Shown piece by piece: positions 1 through 24,358 of a stretch of DNA of 57,275 nucleotides. Source of the DNA: Planctomycetia bacterium (GTDB lineage: Bacteria; Planctomycetota; Planctomycetia; Gemmatales; Gemmataceae). The translations under genes were made by a program, and so were the position numbers. The DNA lies in assembly GCA_005808665.1 (NCBI GenBank), contig SYLG01000060.1:1-57275 (forward strand), given 5' to 3'. The notes beneath the pieces were generated by a model. The model saw only the letters and a program-made list of their open reading frames with translations, did no database searches and was not told the DNA's origin. Each line of letters opens with the position of its first letter. Within the stretch, counting starts at the first letter, position 1.

Positions 1-260
1 AAGCGCACAGGGCGACAAACAAACAAGAACTCTATGATCTAACCGAAAAGAAACTGGAAAACATGAGCGATGATCGGAACCTTCTCCTGGGTTTATATTT
101 CCGGTGTTGTGTTGCAGAACTTTTGCGGTAGGCCATAATTGGGTCCAAAAGGTCATTGGGGTCAATCCCTAGAGGACTTAATGAAGACGCCAAACGCTTG
201 TCGGCACCTGTTTTTATTTGGTCCCGTTTCCTTTGTTGAATGGCAATTTCACAAAAACCC
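1..260. other. Unassigned left edge
   Basis: No reading frame here has family resemblance, a ribosome-binding site or a signal I trust. It lies downstream of the leftward coiled-coil gene, so it may hold that gene's 3' untranslated region. I see no hairpin followed by a T-run. The long open frames on either strand look like chance frames. Confidence 0.4.
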
Positions 261-875
261 TTAAGGTTTTTGATTTTCCCGAATGCGGCTGGCGGGGACG
301 ATTTCCAACCAACCCTGTTTAGGTTTGGTTTTTGGGCTATTTTTAAACGGGGTATCCAGGGGTCCACCCAGCCCCGCCGAGAGCATATCCCGATGCGATT
401 CTTCATCCGCACCCACAAGGGCCATAAGTCCTTTTTTCATCTGGTCACAACGATTGGCAAAAATATCCCGCTCTACCGTCCTGCCTTTCAGCTCGATCAC
501 CAACCGGTCCCGTTCCAAAGCCACAATTTTAAGAGCGGCAACCTCCCGAAGTAACCGATCCCGCTCCTCCACCACCACCAAAAGGTTTTTCACCTCGACT
601 TTGAGTTGGTCCCGTTCCACAACCACTTCCCGCAATTCGGTTACCTCCCGGTGGGAACCATCCCGGACCTCCTCAACTTCCAATAACTTGATGCGAAGGT
701 CTGCCTGGTTGTCTACCAAATGGCCATTGGTTTTAAGAGCAGCATCGAGCTCCCGCTCCAACCCCCTGGCATGGTTGCGCAATTCCAAATAGTTCGATTG
801 ACTCCCCTGGCTGAGGGCAAAAAGCCCAAAAAGGACCAATCCAATCCACAAAAGCGAACGACTCGATTGCCCCAT
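261..875 (-). CDS. Membrane-anchored coiled-coil protein of unknown function
   Basis: About 204 residues. A hydrophobic segment lies at residues 8-22 (SLLWIGLVLFGLFAL), followed by a long charged coiled-coil stretch (about 25-155) with repeated E-R-D and V-E-L type heptads such as VERDQLKVEVKNLLVVVEER. The C-terminal 45 residues are polar and probably disordered. I chose the internal ATG at 875 because GAGGAC sits just upstream, whereas the longer frame starting at 959 has no good site and would bury the membrane segment. It is probably a single-pass inner-membrane protein with its coil in the periplasm. It shares a divergent upstream region with the DUF1571 gene. I do not recognise a specific family. 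Confidence 0.6.
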   Translation of the reverse strand: MGQSSRSLLWIGLVLFGLFALSQGSQSNYLELRNHARGLERELDAALKTNGHLVDNQADLRIKLLEVEEVRDGSHREVTELREVVVERDQLKVEVKNLLVVVEERDRLLREVAALKIVALERDRLVIELKGRTVERDIFANRCDQMKKGLMALVGADEESHRDMLSAGLGGPLDTPFKNSPKTKPKQGWLEIVPASRIRENQKP

Positions 876-1259
876 AATGTCCTCAAACTGAAAAATTGGC
901 AAAGGATCCGGAAGTGCCCTGTTTAGCCCAAGCCAAAAATGACCCAGCAGGGGAAACATCGACTACCCAATTGGCCCAATTTAATCAAATTGACCAGTAT
1001 TCCTAAAATTACACGAAGACGGGCTTTTGAGATAGGGCAATCCTTTTCCTCGGCCTAGCCCTATTTTTCAACACAATGGACATAATAGGATAAATAGGAA
1101 ACTTAATTATCCTCCGAATGATCCCGATTTTTGTAAACTTTCCCTCAAGTTTTCCCAATCGGCCTTTCTTTCGAGGGAACCCACAGGCTATGAACCTCGT
1201 GATGAATAGGAACGGGTTGCCTTGCTTTGAGAGGTCCGTGCTTTCCAATGGAAAGGGCC
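876..1259. other. Divergent intergenic region
   Basis: This 384-bp stretch separates two divergently transcribed genes and must carry both promoters. I could not pick convincing -35/-10 pairs. It holds an exact 7-bp inverted repeat, AGGATAA and TTATCCT with a 13-bp spacer, at 1087-1113, which could be an operator. Confidence 0.4.
1087..1113. repeat. Inverted repeat AGGATAA-N13-TTATCCT
   Basis: A perfect 7-bp dyad in an AT-rich patch about 150 bp upstream of the DUF1571 start. Position and symmetry suit a regulator site, but a dyad this short can arise by chance. Confidence 0.3.
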
Positions 1260-2381
1260 ATGATGGCAAATTTTCGCCTTGTGCCGTGTCTGCTTCGGGC
1301 CCCTTTTGCAAGGAATTCCATTCCAGGATGGGGAATGATGGTCCTTGGTTTTTTGACCAGTACCCCTTTAATGGGGTGTCAAATCCTGGATGTACCTCAA
1401 GCCCTTGCCAAGGACCGCTCACCCACTTCCTCCAACACTCCTCCCACCCAATCGAATCCACCAAACTCCAAGCTAGCCACCCCTGTCACGGTGGTTGCCA
1501 AAGGAAGCCACTCTCCGGAAGCCGTTCTCCTACCGGTGGCCCTTGCCAACATCAAAACGCAGGCCAGGGAGGGAATTCGCCCCAACCCGGAACTTTTGCT
1601 TGCCACCCGCGGAATGTTGGCTGCCGTAACCCCGATTGACCCACCCCTTCCCATCCCGGCGGGCCCCTCGGAAACGGACCCTTTATTGGTGGTTTATCGG
1701 CGAGGGTACCAGTGGTTTCAGGGAACCGACAGTTTCACTTGCCGGATGTTTCGCCGGGAGGTCGTGCGGGGCAAGCCCCACCCCGAAGAGCTCATGTCGT
1801 TTCAATATCGCAAGGCCCCTTACAGTATTCATTTCAAATGGTTGGGTCAGGAGGGGAAGGGGCGCGAGGTGGTTTATGTGGAGGGGAAATATGAGGATAA
1901 AATCCAGACAAAATTGGCCGGAGGGGACATCCCTTTTGTCTCCGCCGGGAAACGAATGAGCTTTTCCCTCGACAATCCGCTGGTCAAGAACGCAAGCCGT
2001 CACAGTGTCCGGGAAGCGAGTTTTGGCTTTATGTTATCTACGGTTGGCACCATGATTGCGCATCAAAAGGAGAACAATCCCAAATTGGGAAGCATCCAGT
2101 ATCTGGGCAAAATTCGTCGCCCCGATATCGAAGGGGAGATTGAACTGGTGGAATGCCGCTTGGCCCCGGGTGCTGAAAATGCCCTTCCCGAGGGGGGGCG
2201 CCGTCTCTATGGATTTGATCCGGTTTTGGGAAACCCGGTGCTTTTGCAAACCTTTGACTTCAAAGGGCAGGAGGTGGAGTATTACCGCTATGACCGCTTC
2301 TTTTTCAAAGGCCTTGAGGAAGATGATTTCAATCCGGAAGTCCTTTGGGCCCAACCGAATGGGAAACCAAAACAGTCCTGA
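1260..2381 (+). CDS. DUF1571-family secreted protein
   Basis: About 373 residues. The N-terminus is hydrophobic and contains LMGC, a possible though imperfect lipobox, so it may be an exported lipoprotein. A low-complexity Ser/Thr/Pro/Asn linker follows. The folded part (about 140-365) carries the family pattern of DUF1571: the YRRGYQWFQGTDSFTCRMFR region, the PEELMSFQYRKAPYSIHFKW region, then VYVEGKYEDKI, and a C-terminal segment ending with a FDFKGQEVEYYRYDRFFF-type strand. Proteins of this family are typical of planctomycetes and have no established activity. I preferred the ATG at 1260, which has GAAAGGG about 5 bases upstream, over the earlier frame start at 1227. Confidence 0.75.
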   Translation: MMANFRLVPCLLRAPFARNSIPGWGMMVLGFLTSTPLMGCQILDVPQALAKDRSPTSSNTPPTQSNPPNSKLATPVTVVAKGSHSPEAVLLPVALANIKTQAREGIRPNPELLLATRGMLAAVTPIDPPLPIPAGPSETDPLLVVYRRGYQWFQGTDSFTCRMFRREVVRGKPHPEELMSFQYRKAPYSIHFKWLGQEGKGREVVYVEGKYEDKIQTKLAGGDIPFVSAGKRMSFSLDNPLVKNASRHSVREASFGFMLSTVGTMIAHQKENNPKLGSIQYLGKIRRPDIEGEIELVECRLAPGAENALPEGGRRLYGFDPVLGNPVLLQTFDFKGQEVEYYRYDRFFFKGLEEDDFNPEVLWAQPNGKPKQS

Positions 2382-2631
2382 AAGCGGGACTCTGCCAACC
2401 TGACAGACCCAACCGGAAAGCAAAATGCAGCTGTCGCCAGTTGGGGCAGGTAAAAAAAATCCCCCAATTGGACTTGCACGACCTAAGTTCAATCTTATCC
2501 TACCTTTGCAAGGAAAGCACCAAGCAACCAGGTTGGGTTGGCATCCTATTTGCCCGTAACTCTTGATTGGGTCTCGCGTAAACAGGATTCACGGCCAAGT
2601 GGTTGTGGCATCGCGGGAAGGATACGGCACC

Positions 2632-3060
2632 ATGATGGCACTGGCCCCGGAAGCTCGGGACATCTCTGTCCTTATTGCTGACGATGAGCCTAGCAGTCGG
2701 GAAACCCTGCGAGGAATCGTTGAGCCTATGGGCTTTAAAACGATCCTGGCCCCGACTGGGGAACAGGCAATCGACATCATCCGGTCCATGTCTATCCATC
2801 TCGCCCTGCTGGACCTGAATCTTCCGCGAATGAGTGGACTGGATGTTCTTCGGATGGCCAGGCAAATCATTGCCGGGCTGCCCGCCATTCTCGTCACCGC
2901 GGATGCGACCGTGAAGGTGATGCGTGATGCCCAAAGGGAGGATGTTTTCAGCGTCATTCCAAAGCCTGTCAGCAAAAGCATAGTGGTCTATACGATCACC
3001 CGTGCCTTGGCCCAGCGTTATGGATCCGTTGGCGATAAGCCTCAAACCCCGGTTGCGTGA
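2632..3060 (+). CDS. Stand-alone response-regulator receiver domain
   Basis: About 142 residues forming a single CheY-like receiver domain. The acidic pair is in LIADDEP, the phospho-acceptor aspartate in LLDLNLPRMSG, the conserved Thr in LVTAD, and the conserved Lys in PKPVS, so all key residues for phosphotransfer are present. There is no output domain, so it probably acts by protein contact with a partner encoded elsewhere. The start at 2632 follows GGAAGG; the longer upstream frame is not receiver-like. No histidine kinase gene is near. It lies 57 bp upstream of groES and could be cotranscribed with it. Confidence 0.8.
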   Translation: MMALAPEARDISVLIADDEPSSRETLRGIVEPMGFKTILAPTGEQAIDIIRSMSIHLALLDLNLPRMSGLDVLRMARQIIAGLPAILVTADATVKVMRDAQREDVFSVIPKPVSKSIVVYTITRALAQRYGSVGDKPQTPVA

Positions 3061-3969: not shown

Positions 3970-6084
3970 TTGTTTCACCCGCATTGGAATTCAAATCGTG
4001 CTGTGATCCTTTTCGTCACCGCCGCAATTACCTTTGCCCCGAGCGGGGAGACATTGGCGCAAGATCGTCTTAAATCCATGCCCGGAAATGCCCAATACGA
4101 AAAACTATCAAGGGAAATCGGCAAGTCGATCCAGTCGGGAGCAATTCAGCCCACCTGGAAAGATCAGGGAAAAAGTGTGGAATACACCCGCGATTCGAAA
4201 AAATATGCCTTCGACATTGTCGCCCGGAAAGAAAGGGAACTAGTCCCACCCAAAGAGACGGAGGGTAAAAAAGGGCAAAGTCGGCCAACGAATGCCCCCA
4301 CCAAGGGCCCCGCCCGTGGCAGGCAGGCCAACAAAGCCCTGTCCCCGGATGGAAAAACCCTTGCCACCTACAAGGACCGAAACATTACCCTGAGTGATCC
4401 CAAGGGGGAAAACCCCAAACCACTTACCACCGACGGAAATGAAAAGGCACGGGTCAAAAACGGCGTGGCCAGTTGGGTCTATGGCGAGGAATTGGAACAA
4501 AAAACGGCGCTGTGGTGGTCCCCCAATTCCAAAAAACTTGCCTACTACCGCTTTGACGAGTCCAAGGTCAAGGATTTTTACCTCGCTCTGGATCAGACCA
4601 AACTACAAACCAGACTGGATGCTGAGGCCTATCCCAAGGTTGGCACCGACAACCCGATTGTTGAATTGGTGATCCATGACACATTTACCCATAAAAGCGT
4701 CAAAGTCGATGTCCGAAGTGGCAAACCATTCACCAATGATGTTGTAGGGCATTATGTATATAACATTTCCTGGTCGAATGACGGCAAGGAACTCCTGTTT
4801 TTTCGAACCAACCGGTTGCAAAAGGTGATGGAGTTTGTGGCCGCCGACCCGGAATCGGGCAAGGTTCGGGTGATTGTGCGGGAGGAATGGCCAAAAAGTT
4901 GGGTCGAAAACCTTCCGGAAAAACGCTTCCTGAAGGATGGCAGGCGCTTTATTTGGGGGTCTCAACGAACCGGATTCCTGAATTATTACCTTTATGATCT
5001 CGATGGCAACCCTTTTGTTTCCTTGACACGCCATGGGGTTGAGGTTGCCAACATTATTGACATCGACGAGGCCAAAGGGGTTCTTTACTACATGGCCCGC
5101 ACGGGTCAAAACCCGATGAAACTCCAGCTTCACCGGGTTAATCTCGATGGCACCAATGATACCCGATTGACCAACCCCCTTCTGCATCACCAGGTTTTCA
5201 TGGCGCCTGATTTCAGACACTTTGTCGACATCACCCAAACGCATGACGCTCCCCCCACTACAAACATTCTGGATATCGAGGGTACATTTGTCGCCGAAAT
5301 GGGCAAAAGCAACACCAGCCAATTTGAAAAACTGGGGCTCAAAAAGGTGGAGCTTTTTTCCTTCAAATCCGCCGACAAGGTCACGGACCTGTATGGCCTC
5401 CTCCACAAGCCTTCGACCTTTGATCCCAGGAAAAAATACCCGGTTTTGGTAAGTGTTTACGCCGGCCCTGAAACCAATGCGGCAAGGGAAACCTTTACCC
5501 TGCCCAGTGCCCTTGCCGAGTTTGGTTTCCTGGTCGTTTCCCTGGATTCAAGGAGTGCAAAGGGGCGGGGCAAGAAATTCCTTGATGCCATCTATCAGGA
5601 CTTTGGTATCGCCGAAATAGATGATCAGGCAGAGGGTGTAAAAGAATTGGCAAAAAGGCCTTATGTGGATGCCAAAAGGGTGGGAATCTACGGAACATCC
5701 TACGGAGGATTTGCCTCCGCCATGTGCCTGTTGCGTCATCCGGAGGTGTTCCAGGCGGCAGTGGCATGTTCGGCGGTTACAGATTTTCGGAATTATGATA
5801 CCATCTACACCGAACGATACCTGGGGTTGCCAACGGACGGAACCAAAACCTATGAAAAGACCAACCTGATGGCGTTGGCACCCAAACTCAAAGGCCGCCT
5901 CATGATCTTTTTTGGCACCGCAGACGACAATGTCCACCCCAACAACGCCCTGCAATTGATTCAGGCGTTTCAGAAAGCGGGTAAAAGTATCGATGTCCAG
6001 GTCGGGCCCGATGTTGGCCATGCTGCCTTGTCCATGCCCCGGATGATGGAGTTTTTTATTGAAACACTGGTATTGGGAAAATAG
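3970..6084 (+). CDS. Secreted dipeptidyl-peptidase-IV-type S9 serine peptidase
   Basis: 704 residues starting at a TTG preceded by AAAGGGG. A Sec signal peptide covers about 1-30 (hydrophobic core VILFVTAAITFA, cleavage near TLAQ). The DPP-IV N-terminal beta-propeller domain covers about 115-470 and carries WVYGEE, matching the paired-glutamate motif that binds the substrate N-terminus in DPP IV. The alpha/beta-hydrolase domain has the nucleophile S577 in GTSYGG, the acid in GTADDNVHP (D652 or D653) and H684 in DVGHA. It should release N-terminal dipeptides from peptides in the periplasm or outside the cell. It stands alone between repeat copy A and the convergent ruvX operon. A Lys/Pro/Gly-rich insert at about 95-118 is unusual. 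Confidence 0.9.
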   Translation: MFHPHWNSNRAVILFVTAAITFAPSGETLAQDRLKSMPGNAQYEKLSREIGKSIQSGAIQPTWKDQGKSVEYTRDSKKYAFDIVARKERELVPPKETEGKKGQSRPTNAPTKGPARGRQANKALSPDGKTLATYKDRNITLSDPKGENPKPLTTDGNEKARVKNGVASWVYGEELEQKTALWWSPNSKKLAYYRFDESKVKDFYLALDQTKLQTRLDAEAYPKVGTDNPIVELVIHDTFTHKSVKVDVRSGKPFTNDVVGHYVYNISWSNDGKELLFFRTNRLQKVMEFVAADPESGKVRVIVREEWPKSWVENLPEKRFLKDGRRFIWGSQRTGFLNYYLYDLDGNPFVSLTRHGVEVANIIDIDEAKGVLYYMARTGQNPMKLQLHRVNLDGTNDTRLTNPLLHHQVFMAPDFRHFVDITQTHDAPPTTNILDIEGTFVAEMGKSNTSQFEKLGLKKVELFSFKSADKVTDLYGLLHKPSTFDPRKKYPVLVSVYAGPETNAARETFTLPSALAEFGFLVVSLDSRSAKGRGKKFLDAIYQDFGIAEIDDQAEGVKELAKRPYVDAKRVGIYGTSYGGFASAMCLLRHPEVFQAAVACSAVTDFRNYDTIYTERYLGLPTDGTKTYEKTNLMALAPKLKGRLMIFFGTADDNVHPNNALQLIQAFQKAGKSIDVQVGPDVGHAALSMPRMMEFFIETLVLGK

Positions 6085-12182: not shown

Positions 12183-13241
12183 ATGTTGCGACAAATGGGT
12201 TTGGGGATGGGGGTGGTACTGCTAATTGTCTTGTTGGTTTCAGGACAAAACGGTGTGGGGGATGCAAAAACCGGTCTACCCAAATCCATAGCTGCCCCTT
12301 TGATAACTTCCCCTCTCCTGATCGATGGAAAAATCGACGAACCCGCATGGAAAAAGGCACCCTGGTCGGATCTCTTTGAAGATATCGAGGGGAGCAAAAA
12401 ACCCAAACCGCCCCTTGCAACCAAAATGAAAATGGTTCATGATTCCAGGGGATTATACATCGCCGTCGAGATGGAGGAACCCCATCTGCAAGGGTCCTTT
12501 ACGGAACATGATAGCTACATTTTTCATCTCGATAATGATTTTGAGGTTTTTATTGATTCGGATGGTGACTGCCAAAACTATGTCGAATTGGAAATGAATG
12601 CCAAAAACACCACCTGGGATTTGCTTCTGACCAGGCCCTATCGGGATGGAGGCCGGGCTCTTGACAGCTTTGAAATGAAAGGGGTTCAAACCGCGGTTTT
12701 CCTGGATGGAACCATCAATGATCCATCCGATATCGACCGTGGTTGGACCGTGGAAATGTTTCTCCCCTGGAAAAGCCTTGCCGAGGTTGGCCAGGGGGTC
12801 CCACCAAAATTGGGTGAAAGGTGGAGGATCAATTTTTCACGGGTGGAGTGGGAGTGGGATATTAAAGATAGGAAATATGTTAAAAAACCAGGGAGGCCAG
12901 AACGAAACTGGGTCTGGTCCCCCCAGGGGGAAATCAACATGCACCTGCCCGAACGATGGGGCTCTGTCGTTTTCGTGGGTCCAGAGGATGGGGCTAAGGC
13001 CCTTCCTTCCGATGATGTGGCCTTGGCCCGGCTCCTGTTGGGCCGCCTCCATCAGGCACAACAGGCATACCGGGGAAAAACCGGGGCCTTCGCCCCGACC
13101 CTTGGCCAACTGCAATTCGATCCAACCCCCTTTTCGCCAGGAGACATTACCCTTTGGGCATTTAAGGACCGTTACGAAGCGACCATTAAGGGGGGGATGT
13201 CTCCAAAATTGTCTATTCGTGAGGATGGCGGTCTCCGTTAA
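12183..13241 (+). CDS. Secreted protein with CBM9-like carbohydrate-binding domain
   Basis: About 352 residues. A Sec signal or membrane anchor (GMGVVLLIVLLVSG) covers residues 8-21. A CBM9-like fold spans about 35-275: PLLIDGKIDEPAWKKAPW, KMKMVHDSRGLYIAVEMEEP, NDFEVFIDSDGDCQNYVELE, then GWTVEMFLPWKSL and the ERWRINFSRVEWEW segment. This type is common in planctomycete secreted proteins with or without a hydrolase. No catalytic domain is attached. A 60-residue C-terminal helical tail is unassigned. I chose the ATG at 12183 because AAAGGAGATCCGCC precedes it; the frame also opens at 12159 in an ATGA overlap with hemW. It is likely cotranscribed with hemW. Confidence 0.8.
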   Translation: MLRQMGLGMGVVLLIVLLVSGQNGVGDAKTGLPKSIAAPLITSPLLIDGKIDEPAWKKAPWSDLFEDIEGSKKPKPPLATKMKMVHDSRGLYIAVEMEEPHLQGSFTEHDSYIFHLDNDFEVFIDSDGDCQNYVELEMNAKNTTWDLLLTRPYRDGGRALDSFEMKGVQTAVFLDGTINDPSDIDRGWTVEMFLPWKSLAEVGQGVPPKLGERWRINFSRVEWEWDIKDRKYVKKPGRPERNWVWSPQGEINMHLPERWGSVVFVGPEDGAKALPSDDVALARLLLGRLHQAQQAYRGKTGAFAPTLGQLQFDPTPFSPGDITLWAFKDRYEATIKGGMSPKLSIREDGGLR

Positions 13242-13430
13242 TCTCCTTTTCCAACAGGCAGCAGGTGGCTGATCCCCCTTGAAAAGTGAAATCGTAGGGC
13301 CAAAGGTGGATGGAGGGGGTTTGTGGGTAAATGGCCGAAAGGGTGGGGGCGGGTTGAAGATTTCTGACCAATTGAAGGTGGACCGCATGAATCCCCTTGT
13401 TCCCGATCGACCCTTGGTCCCTGATTTGTT
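13242..13430. other. Intergenic segment before repeat copy B
   Basis: I see no gene, RNA or terminator here. Together with copy B it makes a roughly 550-bp non-coding interval between the CBM9-like gene and msrB. Confidence 0.4.
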
Positions 13431-13715
13431 TTACCCCAAGTTTCGCAGGTGGAGTGATTTTTCACGATTTTTGGCTAATTATGGGGCCCAGATTGTGGTT
13501 TTTCCCGTGGTTTTGGAGGATATCGAGTTCAAAAAGGCTCGTAGTCCCAACCAATTTACCTGATATTGCCCGTTACTTGTGCAGTTTTAACAAAGGGGTT
13601 TGCTGTTCGCAGGTACACTGGAAGGGATTTGTAGTCCCGATTTTTGCAGGCGGATATGTCTTTTTTCCCGGAAAATCCTCTGTTTTCATGGTCACAACTT
13701 CCTAACTTGGGTTAC
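13431..13715 (+). repeat. MITE-like dispersed repeat, copy B (internally deleted, 285 bp)
   Basis: Same orientation as copy A. It carries GATTTTTGGCTAATTATGG, TTTTTCCCGTGGTTTTGGAG, CGTAGTCCCAACCAATTTACC, and GGGATTTGTAGTCCCGATTT, but lacks about 85 bp between the TTCGCAGG block and the GGGATTTGTAG block. Its ends are inverted repeats: left TTACCCCAAGTTTCGC and, read inward from the right, GGTAACCCAAGTTAGG. An open frame runs through it into msrB, but msrB has its own start and ribosome-binding site downstream. Confidence 0.75.
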
Positions 13716-13791
13716 CCTGATTCCCAAACTTGATGTACACCCTATCAATAGTCTTTGGATACCCTTTCATTCTCTCATGATTGGAGCCGCC

Positions 13792-14193
13792 ATGTTGGTC
13801 GAAAAAATCATCAAATCCGAGGCCCAGTGGCAACGGGAGCTTTCCCCCGAGGCTTTTCGCATCGCCCGAAAGCAGGGAACCGAACGGGCCTTTTCCGGCG
13901 CCTACTGGGACAATCATGCCCAGGGTACTTATGTTTGTGTTTGCTGTGGCCAACCCCTTTTTTCCTCCGAAACCAAATTTGACTCTGGGACAGGGTGGCC
14001 CAGTTTTTTCCAAACCATCACCCCGGATGCCCTGGAGAGTAACCGGGATTGCAGCCATGACATGGAACGCATTGAAGCCGTCTGCAGCAAGTGTGATGCC
14101 CATTTGGGCCATGTTTTTGAGGATGGGCCAGCCCCCACCCGGCTTCGCTATTGCATGAATTCGGGTGCATTGCGTTTTCTGCCCAATGGCTAA
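13792..14193 (+). CDS. msrB: Peptide-methionine (R)-S-oxide reductase MsrB
   Basis: 133 residues. The zinc-binding CxxC pairs are CVCCG and CSKC, the substrate region is KFDSGTGWPSFF, HLGHVFEDGP is present, and the catalytic cysteine is in RYCMNSGAL. It reduces methionine-R-sulfoxide in oxidised proteins using thioredoxin. No signal peptide, so cytosolic. I chose ATG 13792 because GGAG lies 6 bases upstream; the longer open frame to 13600 is repeat-derived sequence. The substrate region has SGTGWPSFF and the active site RYCMNS, both fully canonical. Confidence 0.93.
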   Translation: MLVEKIIKSEAQWQRELSPEAFRIARKQGTERAFSGAYWDNHAQGTYVCVCCGQPLFSSETKFDSGTGWPSFFQTITPDALESNRDCSHDMERIEAVCSKCDAHLGHVFEDGPAPTRLRYCMNSGALRFLPNG

Positions 14194-14344
14194 CCCGGCC
14201 ATAAATAAATCAGGGGAATGACCGCTTGCGGGAACAAAGTCCTTATTGATGGGTAATGTGGTTTTCCGGAAGGGCTAAGGGTTTCACACGGTGGAATGGG
14301 TTTAGGTGCCACCGCCCTTTCCCCAATCGTATATAGGAGTTTAA

Positions 14345-15757
<1,413 letters not shown>

Positions 15758-16000
15758 AGGGTCAAAAGCAACGCGGTTGGGTGAATCCCAAAAAGGCCAA
15801 CGCAATGTTTTGGCTGGGGATTACCACGCCTTTACCCAACCGGAGGAAAGAACCTGCCCGGAATCGACACGATTGTATCATTTCCTATTGTGGGGTCGAC
15901 CCGAACCAAACACTCCGACCATTGGAATTTACCAAGCATTGGGGAATCTTTGCAGTCTGCCAACCCTTGGACAAATCATTCCTCATGACCGGCTCCCCCC
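15758..16000. other. Intergenic segment before repeat copy C
   Basis: No recognisable gene or terminator. With copy C and the following 170 bp it forms a 784-bp non-coding interval upstream of the GTPase operon, whose promoter must lie here or in 16371-16541. Confidence 0.35.
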
Positions 16001-16370
16001 TAAGCCAAACTATCCCGTTCGGACCATGAAAACCCGGTTTTTCCCGGTAAAAAGTTTAATCAGCCTTTAAAAATCGGGACTACAAATCCCCTTTTCCGGG
16101 CTCTGGTGCACCGCTTTGCCGCCTGGTTCCCAATGGCTTTCATTCGTTTCATACCCCGGAGGTAGTTTGGAATCGTTCCGAGCATTAGCGAACACCCGCA
16201 AACTCCATTGAAAAAATCGCACAATTGGGGGGCCAATATCAGGTAACCTGGTTGGGACTACATGTCGTTTGGAACTCGACATACTCCAAAAACAGGGAAA
16301 AAACCGCAAACCGGGTTCCAAAATAGGCCAAAATTCAAAGAAAAAAACTCCCATGGCATAACTTGGGTTA
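16001..16370 (-). repeat. MITE-like dispersed repeat, copy C (370 bp, inverted)
   Basis: Exactly the same length as copy A by my end assignment, in the opposite orientation. On the minus strand it carries TTTTGGCCTATTTTGGAACC, TTTTTGGAGTATGTCGAG, TGTAGTCCCAACCAGGTTAC, AACGAATGAAAGCCATTGGG and GGGGATTTGTAGTCCCGATT in the same order as copy A. Ends on the plus strand are TAAGCCAAACTAT on the left and ATAACTTGGGTTA on the right, imperfect inverted repeats bounded by TA. A roughly 110-codon minus-strand frame lies within it, but it is not preserved in copy A. Confidence 0.78.
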
Positions 16371-16541
16371 GTACCCTTTGGAAGGGTCGAAAACATTTGG
16401 CCAATCCCTTTTAGGCGATTTCCTCATCATCCCTGAAAGGTGAGGTTTCAATAGGATAAGAGTAGTGATTCCACAGGTCTATGACCTTTGCAATCCATAC
16501 CCGTTGAATGTATTCTTGGCACAGGCAAGGGAATCCACAAA

Positions 16542-17861
16542 ATGGCCCGGATCAAAAACGAGGAATTGACCATTCCCCTGTTATCCGAGGTGACTTGTCC
16601 GCATTGCTGGGAAGTGTTTTCCCCCCAGGATGTGTTGTTTATTTCCGACCACAACAACTTGCTGGGGGATGCCCGGCTGGGTGAGGATGCAAGGCTCCGG
16701 TTTCTTCCCACACGATTTAATCGGCGCTGTCAACCACTCGATCCCATTGGCCATGTAAGTCACGACATGGCGTGTCCAAATTGTCATCTTTTGCTTCCGA
16801 AACAGATGATTGAAAACAAGTGCCGGTTCCTTTCGATCCTGGGGGCGCCAGCAAGCGGGAAATCCTATTTTTTGGGATCCATGATTTGGCAGACACGCAA
16901 GGTGCTTTTGCGCGATTTCGGTTATTCTTTCACGGATGCCCATCCGCAATTCAACAAGGTGGTAATCTCCTACGAGGATGCCTTATTCCTGAATCCCAAA
17001 CGGGACCAACGCTTGCCTGTAGGTGAATTGATTCCCAAAACCCAGTTTACAGGCAACCTGCTTTTCAATGAAATCAACCAGGATGGAAGGCCGGTCCGGT
17101 TGCCTCAACCCTTTTTGTTTGAATACCGTGTGCCTGACCCTGCCGGGAAAACCAGGACCAGGCTCATGTGCCTTTATGACAATGCAGGAGAATCGTTCCT
17201 TGCGGGGAGTGAGGATGCCAGTGCCTTTGAGACCACGAGACACCTTGCAAACTCGTCTGCCCTCTTTTTTGTCTTTGACCCCCTTCAGGATGCCCGTTTT
17301 GCGGATGCACTTGAAGAGGTTGCACCGGGTGCTTCGCGATTTGGCCTTCCCTTTCCAGTTCAACACCGGCAGGAAATCATCCTTCGCGAGGCGAGTGTTC
17401 GCATCCGGCGATTTTTATCCATGAGAAATGATGAAAAACACAAAAACCCGTTGGTTGTCGTGGTCGGCAAATACGATGTTTGGTGGAAACTGTTTCCCGA
17501 GGCCAAAAACCTCGATTGGCTAAGGAACTCCCGCGCCAAAACCAATGACTCGCCGGATCCCCAAGCCACTCCGGGGGTAAACCTTTCCGCCATCAACCGG
17601 TTGTCCGCAAATCTGCGCACCCTTTTGTTTCGGCTCTGCCCGGATATGGTGGGAACCGCAGAATTCTTTGCGGAACAGGTTATTTTCCTTCCTGTAAGTG
17701 CCCTTGGGTTTGCTTGCAAAGAGCACTCCGAACGGGGTGGAGATCCCAATCTCGTTCGTCCAAGGGATATTGATCCCTTTCAGGTGGAACTTCCCCTCAT
17801 TTGGTATTTGACAAGGTCACGAACCAAATCAACCGATTCCGATGAAGAACAGGAGGATTGA
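16542..17861 (+). CDS. Zinc-ribbon P-loop GTPase of a GTPase/GAP1-type system
   Basis: About 439 residues, soluble. The N-terminus has two split Cys pairs, CPHC (19-22) and CPNC (78-81), likely a zinc ribbon interrupted by an insert. The GTPase core follows: G1 GAPASGKS (101-108), G3-like LYDNAGES (211-218, DxxG), G4-like VVVVGKYD (about 303-310), and a G5-like PVSAL near 384. This order and the GKxD variant fit TRAFAC-type GTPases, near the double-GTPase group found with GAP1 proteins. It is the first gene of a six-gene operon, overlapping the next by up to 20 bp. The frame opens at a TTG at 16488; I prefer ATG 16542 after AAGGGA. It may be the signalling switch of the system; this is inference from family context. 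Confidence 0.75.
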   Translation: MARIKNEELTIPLLSEVTCPHCWEVFSPQDVLFISDHNNLLGDARLGEDARLRFLPTRFNRRCQPLDPIGHVSHDMACPNCHLLLPKQMIENKCRFLSILGAPASGKSYFLGSMIWQTRKVLLRDFGYSFTDAHPQFNKVVISYEDALFLNPKRDQRLPVGELIPKTQFTGNLLFNEINQDGRPVRLPQPFLFEYRVPDPAGKTRTRLMCLYDNAGESFLAGSEDASAFETTRHLANSSALFFVFDPLQDARFADALEEVAPGASRFGLPFPVQHRQEIILREASVRIRRFLSMRNDEKHKNPLVVVVGKYDVWWKLFPEAKNLDWLRNSRAKTNDSPDPQATPGVNLSAINRLSANLRTLLFRLCPDMVGTAEFFAEQVIFLPVSALGFACKEHSERGGDPNLVRPRDIDPFQVELPLIWYLTRSRTKSTDSDEEQED

Positions 17862-17886
17862 CCCGGGCTTTGATCCGGCAGCAATC

Positions 17887-19557
17887 ATGGCGCACCAATT
17901 TGTCTTTACATCACTTGAAAAAACCATGGCCGGGAATCCTGGCTTTGGCGTGGCCGGAATGAGCCCAGGTTTTCCCGAGGTTTTGCGGACACGAATGCAG
18001 GGCCTTGTCTCTTATGAGGGTGCCAGCTCGCCACCCTTTTCCCAAAGCCCAATCCAGGGTCAGGGATCCGTCAATTGGTTTGGCCTCAGGATCGAGGTGG
18101 CCTCCCGCATGTATTGCATCCTGGGCCGCATCGGACCAACAATCAACGATTATTCCGGTCGCAAAAACCACATTGCCCATTTGCTTATCCTCGATGCCCA
18201 GGAAACAGCCACTGTACATCCCGGTTCGCTCCTGCGCGATTTTCCCTGGATGTCCAATTGGAAAGAGGAAGCAAGGTTGCTGCCCGTTCCGATCCTTTCC
18301 GGCACGGCCGCCATCGAACCCGCCTCACGCCATTGGCAGCGACTTACGGGGGATGCGGGTTATGCCGGGGCGGCTTGGGACGCTTTGAATACCGGTCGCC
18401 CCTTTACATTCCTTCACGAGGGGCTTGATGATGCTACCCTCAAAGAATTGGTCGTTGAAACCCTTTCGCAAGCCCCAAACCCTGATGCCTGGAAACTTCG
18501 ATTTGCAACCTTGGCAGGGGATTTTGCCGAGTGCAGGCAAAGCGACCTTGCCGGTGCGGTGATTGGCAGTCGCTTTGCCGAACAATTGCTTACACAAAAG
18601 GTGCCCTCGATTTGCCTAAGCCCAAACCCAAAAGTATTACCCCCTCTGGCTGGACCTTGGGCAGCTCAAGCCCGATTGGGACGGGTTTCCCTTTCCTCCG
18701 ATGTCCCTCGGCCCAAAATCGTTTCAAGGACTCGCAATCGGCCGGAAATCCTTCAAGCCGAAGTTGTCGAAAGCCAACCCAATATCGAGCCCTTATCCAG
18801 GGAAACCATTACACCCTATGCCTTGCAACAACCGGCAAAAGCGGCCGCTTCAACCCCCCAAAAATCATTGCCCGCCCCTCCACCCGATCCGTGGCGTATG
18901 GTTTTACCGGGTGGTATAGGTTTCTTCCTTGGAGTATTGACCACGGGTACCCTCGTGGCCCTTGGTTTCTACAGCTTCAAGGCAATGGGCGACTTGCCCG
19001 AGGGGGAGCCCCGGATCGATCCGCCTGGTGGCAACCTCAAGCCAATCGAAGAAAAAAAGGACCAACCAAAGGTTCAGCATGTCCCCGTACCCGGGTTTTT
19101 CCTGACACCTTTGAAGGCGGCAAAATGGATGATCGGTCTCGGTATCAGGGAACCCACCGATCCGGTGGAGATCGAGGCCCAAGCGAGAATGCTTCGCAAA
19201 TTCAAAAATATGGAGGGGTTGAGCCAAGCCGAAAGGGACCTCATTCGCCCGGATCGTTTTTGGGAGTTGGTTCGAATTTTGCAAGCCGCCATCCCTCCCC
19301 TCCCTGAACCTTTTACCGATGACCGAATCAACAAACTCACCACCTCAGAAGCTGAAGACGCCTGGATCATGGAGGTAGCAGCCATGGTACCTTTTTCCAC
19401 CAGGAATCATGCGTTGGCGTATCTTTCGCTTATTGCGAATTGGGACCGGGCTTCGCTCCGGATCAAAAAAATTAGCGAAAGGGCAGCTGCCGACAAAAAC
19501 CTGGCCCCTCACCTTGAAAAGATTAAAGAGAGCTTGGAAAGCTATAAAAATCATTGA
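17887..19557 (+). CDS. GAP1-N2-domain GTPase-associated membrane protein
   Basis: About 556 residues. The first 150 resemble the GAP1-N2 domain: start MAHQFVFTSLEKTMAGNPGF, then GVAGMSPGFP, a LSYEG-like VSYEGA, MYCILGRIGPTINDYSGRKN, and HIAHLLILD. The next 120 residues resemble the GAP1 middle region, with PDAWKLRFATLAG. A Pro-rich linker precedes a transmembrane segment at about 340-362 (GGIGFFLGVLTTGTLVALGF), then a polar helical C-terminal domain of about 190 residues with no name I know. GAP1 proteins occur beside GTPases and are proposed regulators or adaptors in conflict systems. Residue 1 could instead be at 17842, inside the GTPase gene; the family normally starts just before HQF. Neither start has a strong Shine-Dalgarno. 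Confidence 0.72.
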   Translation: MAHQFVFTSLEKTMAGNPGFGVAGMSPGFPEVLRTRMQGLVSYEGASSPPFSQSPIQGQGSVNWFGLRIEVASRMYCILGRIGPTINDYSGRKNHIAHLLILDAQETATVHPGSLLRDFPWMSNWKEEARLLPVPILSGTAAIEPASRHWQRLTGDAGYAGAAWDALNTGRPFTFLHEGLDDATLKELVVETLSQAPNPDAWKLRFATLAGDFAECRQSDLAGAVIGSRFAEQLLTQKVPSICLSPNPKVLPPLAGPWAAQARLGRVSLSSDVPRPKIVSRTRNRPEILQAEVVESQPNIEPLSRETITPYALQQPAKAAASTPQKSLPAPPPDPWRMVLPGGIGFFLGVLTTGTLVALGFYSFKAMGDLPEGEPRIDPPGGNLKPIEEKKDQPKVQHVPVPGFFLTPLKAAKWMIGLGIREPTDPVEIEAQARMLRKFKNMEGLSQAERDLIRPDRFWELVRILQAAIPPLPEPFTDDRINKLTTSEAEDAWIMEVAAMVPFSTRNHALAYLSLIANWDRASLRIKKISERAAADKNLAPHLEKIKESLESYKNH

Positions 19558-19569
19558 TAGAAAGACTCT

Positions 19570-21084
19570 ATGTCTCAATCCACACGCAAACTGGTAAAAA
19601 AAATCGAAGACATTGTGTCTCAACCCAAAACCCATTGGTCCCCCATCCAGCAAAACATTGCCAACGATTACACTACTTTGGTGGGGGATTTGGCCGATCG
19701 GGCCAATGTGGTCGAGTTTCAATTTGTCCTGAAAGGAACAAACGAGGCAAAAATGGCTTTGCGCCATCCCACGGATCTGATGGAGGAATTGCGTCTCTTG
19801 CAGTTTCCCTCCCGAACCGTTTGGGAACGCCTCCTTTTGACCAGGGGCATCCATGCCAGGCCCCTACCCAACATCGAATCCCTGGCGCACCTGGTTCAGA
19901 AAATCAATCTTTCAACTTCGTCAAAATCCGGGGTAAGGGGAGCTTTTGGCGAACCCCCGGACCCTAATGAGCCACCACCTTTGGTTGAACCGGAAACGGG
20001 TGCCCAACGCAAAAGGAAAGGGGCGGGTTTTGAACCCCAGGAAAGTTCAACCGGGATCCGATTGTTTCCTTTGGTGTTGGGCATTTTCGCCGTTTGCGCC
20101 GGGCTTTTGGCTTTGGCAATCTTTGGCCCTGCCCTGATGAACAAGGATGATGGCGTAGCAAGGGGCAACCCCGACCCAATGGATCCGATTGAACTAATAG
20201 TAGCCCGGAAAGAAAAAGAAGGGGCCAATCCGGGCAACATTGGGGAAGAAAAGGCCGAAAAAGGCGACTTTAAGGAAGGCAATCAAGCCAAAAAAGAACC
20301 AGGTCCAGTAGCCAAATTGGATCCCATCCCGAAACCCAAAGATCCTGTCCCAATCAAACCTCCCGGGGTGCCTCCCATGGTTCCCATGGTGGAAAAGGAC
20401 AAGCCCATGGAAAAATTGAGGGAGATCCCTGTCGGTTCCATACAACTTCCAGAAATTGCCCAACTGGGAGCCATGTTGGACAAAAACGGAGCGATTGGTG
20501 CATCGGTTAAGCTCCAATTGTCCCTGGAGGGGGATTTGGCCAACAAAAAAGCCCTGGATGAATTTCTTGAATTTGTTCGGTCCGACCCCGGTTTGGTTGG
20601 CAAAAGGACGCTCACTTTGGCAGAGTTTTTAGGTATGAGCAGTTGGCAATCCCCCCTTGGTCGTGACACCTATAATCTCCTTAATCCCGAACGACTTTTT
20701 CGTTGTGCGAATTTGCCAGGTCCCAAGGGTGATGAAGAACTCGGCAACTGGCTTGCCTCGGCAATCCTTTCTCCCAATGCGTTCATGCTTGTGGATACCA
20801 AAAGAAAATTCATTCACCTAGAGACCCTGTTGGGCCTTGCCGCCAACGGCAAAATCATGGCGGACCTTGTCCAGTCCATCGATAAAAGGGTGGTTTCAGA
20901 ACGGGACTCCCTTACGGGCAATGCGCAAAAAATTTCTATCCGGTTTGAGGTCCTTTTACAACAAAAACGCGACTTGAAGGATAAAACGAATCTGGACTTT
21001 GCCCTTGATGTAAACAATGTTCGCAATGCACTTTCCAGGAGGACGAAAGCGTTGGGAATAAAGGTCATCAAAAAACCGACATGA
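19570..21084 (+). CDS. Single-pass membrane protein with shared N-terminal adaptor-like domain
   Basis: 504 residues, no named family. Residues about 8-110 form a helical domain that is visibly homologous to the N-terminus of the next gene's product: MALRHPTDLMEELRLLQFP here versus the matching LARTAPDLLDELTLLEFP there, with a following W-E and a Pro-x-Pro-Asn turn. A transmembrane segment lies at about 166-188 (LVLGIFAVCAGLLALAIFGPA). A long Lys/Glu/Pro-rich disordered linker (about 195-275) leads to a C-terminal domain (about 290-504) with no motif I recognise. The soluble N-domain is probably cytosolic. The gene follows the GAP1 gene by 12 bp and overlaps the next by ATGA, so it is part of one transcript. 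Confidence 0.7.
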   Translation: MSQSTRKLVKKIEDIVSQPKTHWSPIQQNIANDYTTLVGDLADRANVVEFQFVLKGTNEAKMALRHPTDLMEELRLLQFPSRTVWERLLLTRGIHARPLPNIESLAHLVQKINLSTSSKSGVRGAFGEPPDPNEPPPLVEPETGAQRKRKGAGFEPQESSTGIRLFPLVLGIFAVCAGLLALAIFGPALMNKDDGVARGNPDPMDPIELIVARKEKEGANPGNIGEEKAEKGDFKEGNQAKKEPGPVAKLDPIPKPKDPVPIKPPGVPPMVPMVEKDKPMEKLREIPVGSIQLPEIAQLGAMLDKNGAIGASVKLQLSLEGDLANKKALDEFLEFVRSDPGLVGKRTLTLAEFLGMSSWQSPLGRDTYNLLNPERLFRCANLPGPKGDEELGNWLASAILSPNAFMLVDTKRKFIHLETLLGLAANGKIMADLVQSIDKRVVSERDSLTGNAQKISIRFEVLLQQKRDLKDKTNLDFALDVNNVRNALSRRTKALGIKVIKKPT

Positions 21085-22220
21085 GTAAACTTGCCCGATT
21101 AACTGGGGAAATCCAAGCGGCCCTTTCCACGGGGACCCTTTCCGCAACACCGGAAATCGAGAATTTGGCCAGGGAATATGCGGACGAATGCCGCAAAGTG
21201 GTGGATCGCCTGGACCGTTGCGATGAGTTTCTGTCCCGCGGGTTGATTGCCGAATCCATAATGCTTGCCAGGACGGCACCTGACCTCCTTGATGAATTGA
21301 CCCTTCTGGAATTTCCCAGGAAAGACACCTGGGAACAAATGATGGACCTTCATCAGCTCACCATGCCACCCGAGGTGCCAAACCTCAAAGCGGTTAGTCT
21401 TAATCGGGCCTATAGTGAACACCACATTCTCTGTGACATTTTGGGAAGGTGGAGGTTGCTGAACCTTGGCCAAGCCCCCCCGGTAAGACGACTTTCGGTT
21501 CTGAGGCAACTCCAGCGGCTAGCTCCCAATAACCTTGCCTTTCAGGATAACCTTGGGGAATTGGAGGACCAAAGGGTTGAAGAGATGCTTGGGGAGGCCC
21601 GGACAGCTTCCCTGGAAGGGGACCATTTGGCCCTTCGTGATTTGATAACCGAACTGGACAAACCGGAAAACTGGACCAACGACCCCAATGAGGATATTGC
21701 CCGTGAGATTCGTGAACTGGGACACGCCTCCATTGGACAAATCGGCCGCAAGGAAGCCCAGGTGATTCTTCGGCAAATCCTCGATGGATTCAACCAGAAG
21801 GCCGAATCCCGCGTACTGAAGCTATGGGCAGAGTTCCAGGAAAAATGTGCGGAGGCCGGTATTCCTCCCAGCGATGAAATGTTCCGGGTATTGCAAAAGG
21901 TTCGTATTTGGCTAATTGAGGTACAAAACAGGCGTGAAAAAATCATGCAAAGCGAGAGGGCACAGGAACAAATACGGCTGGTTTTGAGGGACAAATCATC
22001 CACCGAAAGCGAGCTTCTCAAGCTTCAGGATAATTACAACCGCCACGAGGGAACAACCTGTCCCATGGACCCAACCCTTGCCCAGGAGTTGGATATCCGG
22101 ATTGAACGCTTCCAGCGAAGGGACAAATCCCGTGAAATGCTCATCATGGCAGGGGCTTTTATCATTGGTGCCTTGATTATCGTTATTTTCCTGGTGATCA
22201 TTATTAAAAGGTCCCGCTAA
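21081..22220 (+). CDS. Tail-anchored helical protein with shared N-terminal adaptor-like domain
   Basis: 379 residues. Residues about 5-110 are homologous to the N-terminal domain of the preceding product. The middle (about 115-345) is strongly helical and charged, with LRQLQRLAPNN and repeated LRDLI/EIREL-type segments suggestive of helical repeats or coiled coil. A single very hydrophobic segment closes the protein (about 350-375, GAFIIGALIIVIFLVIII followed by KRSR), so it is a C-tail-anchored membrane protein facing the cytosol. The start is in an ATGA overlap with the previous stop. Shared domains in neighbouring products suggest homotypic assembly at the membrane; that is inference. Confidence 0.7.
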   Translation: MSKLARLTGEIQAALSTGTLSATPEIENLAREYADECRKVVDRLDRCDEFLSRGLIAESIMLARTAPDLLDELTLLEFPRKDTWEQMMDLHQLTMPPEVPNLKAVSLNRAYSEHHILCDILGRWRLLNLGQAPPVRRLSVLRQLQRLAPNNLAFQDNLGELEDQRVEEMLGEARTASLEGDHLALRDLITELDKPENWTNDPNEDIAREIRELGHASIGQIGRKEAQVILRQILDGFNQKAESRVLKLWAEFQEKCAEAGIPPSDEMFRVLQKVRIWLIEVQNRREKIMQSERAQEQIRLVLRDKSSTESELLKLQDNYNRHEGTTCPMDPTLAQELDIRIERFQRRDKSREMLIMAGAFIIGALIIVIFLVIIIKRSR

Positions 22221-22231
22221 GGAGCCCTTGC

Positions 22232-23266
22232 TTGACCGATTTGATCTATTACAAACATGATGGCCGCATTCACGGACCCCTTGCGATCGCAAAGATTCGC
22301 AAAATTGTCGAACTTGGCCAATTCAATCCAACCGACCAATGGAGCAAAGATGGGATGGTTTGGCAATCCATCAACTCCCTTGCTGGAGCCCCGGAAGAAA
22401 AAGTTCCTTTTTCCATCCACCCCGAACCGGGGCGATTTGAACCATTGCCCGAGAAAATCAAGGCTTTGGATCCGATTCCCTTGATTCAAAAACGACCTAT
22501 CAAGGACTTTGGAATTAAACTTGGGGGGGGGCTAATAGCCTTTTTTTTACTAATTCTTGTTGGATTCTTTTTTTTACGAAGCAAACCGGTGGTGGAACCG
22601 CAAGGTAGGGAGAACCCGGACCAGGGTGGTCAAATCCCCGGGGCAGGGGCGAACAATCTTCCTGCCAAAGGGGCCGGGCCTCTCAACAGGAAAGAGCTCC
22701 TTGAAAAGCATGGAAAATCGGTTGCCCTTGTCCGGCGAATTACTGACAAGGGTGAGGTTGTGGGTTCGGGATTCCTCTTTAATTGGGGATATTTGATGAC
22801 CACTTTGGAGGTGGCTGGGGAGGATCGTGGTATCCTGATTTCCGTCACTTTTCCAGAGGGAAATGGAGATGAACGAGGTCCCCATCAGGCCAGAATCCAC
22901 CACCTGGACCAGGGCCTGGCCATCCTTCGTCTGGATGCCCCCCAGGGACCGATTCCCTTTTCCGGTGAGGGGTTGCTGAAAGCCAATGAGGATTTGGTTT
23001 TATTGGCAAGTCCCGGGTTTTCCGATCCCAAAACTCCCTTGGCCATTGAAGCAACCAATGCCAGCTATGTTACCACTACCCAGAAAAAAGAGCTGGAATA
23101 TCATCGGGTTGGGGGAAAAACCAAACCTGCCAAAGCTGGGGCGCCGGTTTTCAATGGCAAGGGGACGATTGTGGGTATGGTAGCGTCTCCCATTCCGGCA
23201 AATGATCCGCTCTGTATTACCTCTAAACAGATCCTTAAAATTCTGAAGGATGTCAACCTGCCATGA
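22232..23266 (+). CDS. GYF_2-TM-trypsin-fold pseudoprotease
   Basis: 344 residues from a TTG start with AAGGAG 8 bases upstream. Residues 5-52 are a GYF_2 (DUF4339) domain: YYKHDGRIHGPLAIAKI, then GQFNPTDQWSKDGMVWQSI. A transmembrane helix lies at about 93-116 (GGGLIAFFLLILVGFFFL). Residues about 150-344 have the trypsin-like/HtrA fold pattern: GSGFLFNWGYLMTTLEVA, DQGLAILRLD, NEDLVLLASPGF, AGAPVFNGKGTIVGMV. All three catalytic positions look changed: His to Glu in TTLEV, Asp to Gly in DQGLA, and Ser to Ala in KAGAPV. It is therefore predicted to be inactive, perhaps a peptide- or partner-binding module. The GYF_2 domain faces the cytosol if the protein is N-in. Confidence 0.78.
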   Translation: MTDLIYYKHDGRIHGPLAIAKIRKIVELGQFNPTDQWSKDGMVWQSINSLAGAPEEKVPFSIHPEPGRFEPLPEKIKALDPIPLIQKRPIKDFGIKLGGGLIAFFLLILVGFFFLRSKPVVEPQGRENPDQGGQIPGAGANNLPAKGAGPLNRKELLEKHGKSVALVRRITDKGEVVGSGFLFNWGYLMTTLEVAGEDRGILISVTFPEGNGDERGPHQARIHHLDQGLAILRLDAPQGPIPFSGEGLLKANEDLVLLASPGFSDPKTPLAIEATNASYVTTTQKKELEYHRVGGKTKPAKAGAPVFNGKGTIVGMVASPIPANDPLCITSKQILKILKDVNLP

Positions 23267-23317
23267 GGAACCCGGTTTATTGTGGTTATTTGCCAGATCC
23301 TGTTGCCGGTGCATGGC

Positions 23318-24358
23318 ATGACAGATAACCCTTCCCATTGGTTCTTGCGGGCCGCAGGTCGGATCACCGGCCCCTATACCCGTAGCGACCTGGTTGATTT
23401 AAGGCAGCTTTCAAGGTTCATGCCCTTTCACGAGCTTTCGCCCAACAAGGTTATCTGGAAACCGGGGATAGACCTGTTTCCGGAATTGTTCGGACAAGCG
23501 ATATCCGTCCCATTGGACCAATACCAGCCAGCAAAAAATTCCCCTCAGGATAAAGCCATTTCCGGGCAGAATCCGGCCCCGGAAACGGAATACCTCTTCC
23601 TTGACGGAAATGGGAACCAAATGGGGCCGGTTCCCGAATCCCAATTGAGAAACCTCATTCAATCGGGTGAAATCGCATCATCCACCCGAATCTGGACCTC
23701 AGGAATGGCCGTCTGGGTGGATGCGGAATCTCACTTTGGAATCATCCGGAAACCGCCAAAGCGTATCTCGCGACCCGCCAAGGAAACCGCTTTTTTTGAC
23801 CCTGCCATGGGTCCCCGTGCCCAACATGGCTTATTCCTGTTGGGTATCGGACTTTGTCTGCCCCCGCTTTATCCCCTGATCGGTCCCTGGGGTCTGGGAA
23901 CCCTGATGGGGCTAGGGGGTTCCTCAAAGGGTATTGCCCGATTCGCTCTCTTGTTTTTGCTGATTGCCACCATGGTATTTTTTTTCACTGTGGGAGGCTA
24001 TTTCCTTTGCCAATACCTGGAAAAAGAACTGCTATCCGAACAAATTCGGCGGGGTGGATTTGCAGGAACGACTTTCCTGTTCAGTATTCACATTCATACC
24101 TTGCTGGTTTTACTTTCCCAAATGGCTCGTGGGACAGGAGTGCTCCTTTGGGCCCAGGTAGGGGCTGTAATGCAAATGATTCAAGGTATTGCGGATCTTT
24201 TTTGGGTAACCTTTTTTATTGTCACCATGTTTTCCGAAAGCCGTTCCTATTTTGCACCTTTGCTCATTTTGGCAGCGTTCTTTTCCTTAATCACACTGGT
24301 AGGCATGATCATGGCAGCTTTTGGAGTCAGGCAATCGCTTCCCGGCCTAAAAGCTTAA
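23318..24358 (+). CDS. Double GYF_2-domain multi-pass membrane protein
   Basis: About 346 residues. Two tandem GYF_2 (DUF4339) domains: HWFLRAAGRITGPYTRSDL to LFPELFG (about 6-60), and YLFLDGNGNQMGPVPESQL to AVWVDAES (about 90-140). Four or five hydrophobic spans follow: around HGLFLLGIGLCLPPLYPLI, FALLFLLIATMVFFFTVGGY, TTFLFSIHIHTLLVLL, DLFWVTFFIVTMF and LLILAAFFSLITLVGMIMA. GYF_2 domains are proposed to bind proline-rich peptides, and several partners in this operon carry Pro-rich linkers. It is the last gene of the operon. The frame also opens at a GTG (23282) after TGAGGA; I chose the ATG because it starts MTD like the previous gene. Confidence 0.7.
   Translation: MTDNPSHWFLRAAGRITGPYTRSDLVDLRQLSRFMPFHELSPNKVIWKPGIDLFPELFGQAISVPLDQYQPAKNSPQDKAISGQNPAPETEYLFLDGNGNQMGPVPESQLRNLIQSGEIASSTRIWTSGMAVWVDAESHFGIIRKPPKRISRPAKETAFFDPAMGPRAQHGLFLLGIGLCLPPLYPLIGPWGLGTLMGLGGSSKGIARFALLFLLIATMVFFFTVGGYFLCQYLEKELLSEQIRRGGFAGTTFLFSIHIHTLLVLLSQMARGTGVLLWAQVGAVMQMIQGIADLFWVTFFIVTMFSESRSYFAPLLILAAFFSLITLVGMIMAAFGVRQSLPGLKA

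Follow-up and report, generated by a model that had tools for sequence, protein, structure and literature searches.

Gene content of the operon

The window, i.e. the whole stretch of 57,275 nucleotides analysed here, carries six co-directional genes on the + strand between positions 16542 and 24358, and an ORF check of the window confirmed all six reading frames, in line with an earlier annotation made from the letters alone (hereafter the sequence-only reading). The operon is flanked by a tryptophanase-like gene (14348-15757) on one side and by hisD-hisC-hisB, on the opposite strand, on the other, and the codon-position GC of all six genes is similar to that of the neighbouring housekeeping genes. 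Judged by homology, two of the genes probably start downstream of the start of the longest ORF, namely gene 2 at 17887 instead of 17842, as in the copy of a congener, and gene 6 at 23318 instead of 23282. With this start of gene 2, a gap of 25 bp follows gene 1; the remaining junctions are gaps of 12 and 11 bp and, between genes 3 and 4, an overlap of 4 bp. In the congener, the his block is conserved without an adjoining operon, and the operon is found next to the orthologue of window 3970-6081. Since the congener carries the operon elsewhere than beside the his block, its position is not fixed. Searches for copies of the cassette on plasmids and phages yielded none, and an origin from a mobile element or plasmid was therefore rejected.

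Gene 1 (16542-17861, +) matched the Pfam family DO-GTPase2 with an E-value of 4.8e-5 and 23.6 bits, which is under the cut-off of 27 bits. The motifs from which a Cys-pair/P-loop GTPase had been proposed are all present: Walker A (GAPASGKS), DNAGES, GKYD and two CPxC pairs (C19/C22 and C78/C81), which make up a zinc ribbon. Among 12 homologues of gene 1, Walker A, DNAGE, KxD and both CPxC pairs are invariant or nearly so, and the conserved Walker B Glu corresponds to Glu217 of DNAGE. The product of gene 2 (17887-19557, +), referred to as GAP1 in the following, had been described as GAP1-N2-like, and the Pfam profile detected GAP1-N2 well over the cut-off (E 4.7e-14, 53 bits versus 24). GAP1-M was sub-threshold in the window copy (12.4 bits versus a cut-off of 24) and scored 60 bits (E 2.2e-16) in a relative, L018. 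GAP1 consists of a cytoplasmic GAP1-N2/M part, a linker with the sequence SLPAPPPDPW, a transmembrane helix (TM) at about residue 358 of the ORF and a C-terminal part of about 195 residues. Compared to the congener, the GTPase is 73% and GAP1 about 62% identical, with the motifs intact. A prediction of the GAP1 structure by AlphaFold from two sequences reached a pLDDT of 35, too poor for a fold search. In Pfam, none of the six proteins matched FN3, as would be expected of an FNIII-repeat component, and there was no match to TonB- or FHA-type domains among the operon proteins tested.

Genes 3 (19570-21084, +) and 4 (21081-22220, +) code for two TM proteins to which a common N-domain had been ascribed, and their first ~105 residues are indeed related (E 6.8e-5; phmmer 1.1e-7); no Pfam family was matched by either of them. 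As proposed in the sequence-only reading, these N-domains may serve as homotypic adaptors. Gene 3 is composed of this N-domain (residues 6-108), a TM at about residue 161, a Pro-rich linker and a C-terminal domain of ~250 residues (window 20335-21081, +), to which neither the fetched loci nor the PDB contained a relative. Gene 4, as judged from alignments and a phylum-wide profile, marks an uncharacterised protein family, which we call G4, of helical cytoplasmic proteins with a C-terminal TM. The window G4 is a short form without the ~600-residue extracytoplasmic arm of long-form members. Profile searches of the PDB with G4, the long arm and the C-terminal domain of gene 3 returned only coiled-coil, designed-helix or chance-level matches, and a likeness of G4 to Hemolysin E (E 0.015) was rejected as helical-bundle similarity. 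The AlphaFold model of G4 from a single sequence was all-helical with a pLDDT of 58, again too poor for a fold search.

Gene 5 (22232-23266, +) combines one GYF_2 domain, weak in Pfam and strong against homologues, with a TM and a trypsin-fold domain (Trypsin_2, E 4.2e-9). When aligned to the intact relatives L024_3 and L016_11, the positions of the catalytic His, Asp and Ser are taken by E193, G228 and A302, respectively, which agrees with the earlier designation as a pseudoprotease; with the whole triad lost, an active HtrA/trypsin-type protease was rejected. Gene 6 (23318-24358, +) matched GYF_2 in Pfam (E 4.6e-15), and a local profile detected both of the GYF domains that had been attributed to it, followed by a membrane region with about 5 TM stretches. 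The suggestion that the GYF proteins bind Pro-rich linkers received modest support: a cytoplasmic juxtamembrane segment of GAP1 with PPP, PPxP or PPG was present at 13 of 17 loci with GYF genes versus none of the 4 GYF-less loci (p 0.012, confounded by phylogeny). Two loci of doubtful completeness, L021 and L075, in which either G4 or GYF had not been detected, were excluded from this count.

Related loci and a motor trio in relatives

Of 58 relatives of the window genome, 11 have the GTPase, the count for the window's own family being 6 of 36, and a scan of genome contigs for close relatives revealed one partial locus of a congener only. Among 294 planctomycete genomes, the G4 profile gave strong matches (E<1e-10) in 22, all but one of which (21/22) were also positive for GAP1-N2. 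GAP1-N2 occurred in 34 of the 294, and G4 and GAP1-N2 were nearly always adjacent (Fisher p 3e-22). The neighbourhood is conserved across the phylum and GAP1-N2 is detected by profile, so that neither of the two refuting conditions named in the sequence-only reading applies. The window genome itself possesses a second, diverged cassette (L016, contig C29, 10230-18891), the GTPase of which is 43% identical. This cassette is complete and has one intact GYF-trypsin gene and another that is truncated after the Asp region. A congener locus, L020, is without a trypsin gene and has kept the GTPase, GAP1, G4 and GYF-TM genes.

Of the 25 loci that are complete, 17 have three further genes, mot, B1 and B2, directly downstream of G4 or of a GYF-TM gene that comes after G4. 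Mot has ~285 residues and four TMs and matched PF01618 (MotA/TolQ/ExbB) over the cut-off (8e-12 and 6e-12); the Thr residues of 'GFIGT' in TM3 and 'AFETT' in TM4 are invariant over the 17 loci. B1 and B2, of ~270-300 residues each, possess only one TM, which is N-terminal, and also a coiled coil. Where the TM begins, an Asp is invariant in 16 B1 and 16 B2 proteins. The only invariant residues are F-Q-D and a G in B1, and L, D, G and F in B2, and jointly invariant in both are only D19 and G26. This Asp and Gly are what marks the B subunits of proton motors, and B1 and B2 are read here as putative subunits of this type; AglQ/S and TolR have in common with MotB that their one TM helix contains an Asp in the middle of the membrane (PMC9389320). 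Among the Pfam matches listed for 17 B1/B2 members, ExbD/TolR was absent, so that the role assigned to them draws on gene position, topology and the Asp.

In a phylum-wide search, the clade of mot (E<1e-97) was found in 18 genomes and the next tier started at 1e-71. In 17 of the 18, mot lies at a G4 locus; in the remaining one, G097, the trio adjoins a gene that matches G4 weakly, and a GTPase was not found in its vicinity. This phylum-wide association with a motor seems to be new and specific, and it can be tested. The output module, invisible from the window alone, would be a MotA-type motor in the relatives; this speaks for an envelope machine no less than for a toxin.

The second tier consists of MotA homologues of ~500 residues (1e-48 to 1e-71), e.g. 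in G050, G054 and G195, which are located away from the GTPase cassette and recur widely in two planctomycete families.

The motor-less lineage of the window

The window operon contains no mot, B1 or B2, and no close member of the mot clade was found in the genome, whose three other MotA/ExbB genes all fall outside this clade. Across the loci, a motor was present at 17 of 19 with a long G4 versus 0 of 6 with a short G4 (p 1.6e-4, uncorrected for relatedness). Every motor locus has a long G4 with ~600 residues past the TM, which in L074 is divided between two ORFs, and the six short-G4 loci, all of them motor-less, include the window and its genomic paralogue. In the GTPase tree, the window groups with other copies of its own family, and this clade is supported (96/94). 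The complete loci of this clade, four in number, are all motor-less, and three of them (window, L016 and L024) have a GYF-trypsin gene. Elsewhere in the tree, the motor is absent at separate points. In all, the tree requires at least 4 changes, with neither its root nor the direction, loss or gain of the motor, being proven. We read the window copy as a motor-less derivative of a motor-bearing family. In our best explanation, the window carries a derived version that occurs in its own family, in which the motor and the G4 arm would be gone, the GAP1 arm short and the GYF-trypsin gene added, the latter being dead here.

The most similar MotA-type gene of the window genome lies on contig C176 (L091, 2164-6804, -). 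It is distant, has a coiled-coil tail and is followed by genes for two N-anchored proteins, one with a TM Asp (FLDLVANVVG) and the other 723 residues long, Gly-rich and without a TM Asp. We considered this trio as the partner of the window operon and set the idea aside as a possible but unsupported pairing, one of the B-like proteins having no TM Asp.

Comparison with known systems and proposed mechanism

DO-GTPase/GAP1-N2 systems that include GYF-trypsin and GYF-TM genes have been described in planctomycetes before (Kaur, Burroughs, Iyer, Aravind 2020, PMC7159879), the GYF genes being given for some planctomycetes. The statement in the sequence-only reading that pairs of GTPase and GAP1 were known from comparative genomics was thus correct; its idea of a possibly new system was not, since the main text of that paper names the planctomycete GYF-trypsin and GYF-TM partners and the window operon therefore belongs to the described kind. 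In agreement with the main text, the window has a zinc-ribbon GTPase with the Walker B Glu and, directly downstream, GAP1-N2 with a C-terminal TM. The published GYF pair, which is joined either with trypsin or with a TM-rich region, is likewise represented, gene 5 itself having one GYF. In contrast to the published description, the window is without an FNIII repeat protein and its trypsin is catalytically dead, and as far as the main text goes, G4 and gene 3 are not named and the MotA-B1-B2 trio of the relatives is not mentioned, nor are MotA, MotB, TolQ, ExbB or Zorya. Most of the interest is in the phylum-wide association with a motor, and the window copy is a motor-less variant of a system known in kind.

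With regard to the trio, the Agl-Glt and Nfs machines of Myxococcus (gliding and spore coat; AglRQS motor with Glt proteins) are similar in plan. Attia et al. are said to have reported in 2024 that GltJ carries a zinc ribbon and a GYF domain. The Agl proton motor of Myxococcus has one A and two B subunits (PMC3169522), and the trio resembles it in joining a TolQ/MotA-like channel to two different Asp-bearing B subunits (PMC3169522, PMC9389320). Control by a GTPase would be a further likeness, as MglA governs the Agl motor through AglR and the single-TM transducer GltJ (PMC12288465). In contrast to Agl-Glt, the GTPase belongs to another family, no homologue of GltA-K was recognised from the Pfam matches, B1 and B2 are longer, have coiled coils and are not recognised as ExbD/TolR, and the window is without a motor. 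Tol-Pal (TolQRA) is similar in that its proton channel is accompanied by a single-TM partner with the Asp and by a bitopic protein whose periplasmic arm is long, but it has no GTPase control, whereas the trio has two B subunits and GAP1 and G4 stand in the place of TolA; no Pal or TolB was found in the loci. Zorya ZorAB, from which it is known that such motors can serve defence (PMC11890865), shares a MotA/MotB-type pair in an accessory, patchily distributed operon. Membership in Zorya was rejected, as mot with its ~285 residues is without the long tail of ZorA, the matches to ZorA models span the channel core only and no ZorC or ZorD was among the genes tested.

We propose, with a probability of roughly 0.5, that the operon encodes a membrane-anchored, GTPase-controlled complex, that in most of the family the output is a trans-envelope motor driven by the proton motive force and that the window copy is a motor-less derivative. 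The soluble zinc-ribbon DO-GTPase would be the switch and act on the cytoplasmic domains of the single-TM proteins GAP1 and G4, and its constant adjacency and co-occurrence with them suggest that it controls the assembly or activity of the complex. GAP1 and G4 would be bitopic, with cytoplasmic halves that are probably read or assembled by the GTPase, and the GYF proteins may serve as adaptors that hold the Pro-rich juxtamembrane linker of GAP1, as the linker counts weakly indicate. In most relatives, the MotA/TolQ-like proton channel and the two Asp-bearing B subunits would form the output, use the proton motive force and act on GAP1 and G4 through their extracytoplasmic arms of ~500-600 residues, as in Tol-Pal or Agl-Glt. 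The window copy would be a signalling or scaffold derivative or the partner of another motor in trans. Gene order, co-occurrence and motor residues are observed, and the motor genes of most relatives suggest a system that, controlled by the GTPase, sets the cell envelope in motion or exerts a pull on it; that a complex is formed, that it performs mechanical work and in which direction the force acts is what we infer. The adjacency of genes does not prove a physical complex, and the patchy distribution fits defence too. Somewhat short of even odds, the family may represent an undescribed planctomycete class of GTPase-switched, proton-driven trans-envelope machines with an origin independent from Agl-Glt and a similar plan, of which only the switch and the scaffold would be left in the window after loss of the motor.

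The only published proposal for a function of DO-GTPase/GAP1 systems that we found is a role in conflict, put forward in 2020 for GAP1-N2 proteins as a class on the basis of gene content and with a statistical association to the multicellular habit (PMC7159879); our literature search yielded no experimental paper on this family. Applied to the loci studied here, GAP1/G4 would sense invasion at the membrane and the GTPase would set the threshold of an anti-phage or cell-suicide system with the variable modules as effectors, i.e. the trypsin, the GYF-TM protein or, in the relatives, the MotA-type channel, which would depolarise the cell or act like ZorAB. The sequence-only reading had named conflict as one possibility beside signalling, and the distribution is indeed patchy (6/36 in the own family and 22/294 in the phylum), the downstream modules swap between lineages, mot matches ZorA models (2.8e-6, weakly) and B1 a ZorB model (0.004), and the motor-bearing locus L070 has a strong defence-helicase neighbour. 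However, a strong match to a defence model was obtained for only 1 of 20 neighbour and window genes tested, PADLOC matched no window gene except for a generic RT-protease match of the trypsin, and no plasmid or phage copies were seen. Most loci carry one conserved motor trio rather than diverse effectors, and the candidate effector of the window, the trypsin, is dead. We thus consider a conflict role doubtful, albeit worth keeping in view, and the interpretation in the sequence-only reading was, as a whole, partly supported. With a dedicated, conserved proton motor accompanying the GTPase cassette at the majority of planctomycete loci, there is an alternative to conflict that can be tested directly. 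If true, the combination of a GTPase, a stator-type motor and GYF adaptors arose in a second phylum, which would inform the building of switchable envelope machines.

It is unlikely that the system signals membrane stress or protein quality, with the GYF and (pseudo)protease proteins as an HtrA-like relay under GTPase control, no mechanical output and the motor elsewhere as a separate use. The intact GYF-trypsin proteins of the close relatives (L024_3, L016_11) would suit such a relay, as would the window clade, with its four motor-less complete loci and three GYF-trypsin genes, but the protease of the window is dead and L020, from the same genus, keeps the GTPase, GAP1, G4 and GYF-TM in spite of having no trypsin gene. 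A remnant of little function in the window genome, either in decay or reshuffled recently, to which the lost triad, the lost G4 arm, the orphan gene 3 and the other genomic position in the congener might point, is very improbable, since simple decay is at odds with the conservation of the motifs and with six uninterrupted frames of normal codon-position GC; in addition, the GTPase and GAP1 retain 73% and about 62% identity to the congener, and the same genome holds a second full copy.

Some of the related loci deviate in gene content. At L067, L068 and L069, from three genomes that belong to the same genus, there is one GTPase gene with a GAP1-N2 gene on either side, and the MotA-like gene is separated from B1 by an additional GYF-TM gene. 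At L021, in which G4 was not found, a GAP1-N2 protein (12994-16191, -) is fused to three Big_3_5 Ig-like repeats past the TM and its gene adjoins a GTPase gene. At L070, the gene at 58-2943 (+) matches the PADLOC models PDC-S37 (2e-245) and Hhe (1e-138), and a second GYF-TPR-trypsin gene is located at 16304-18751.
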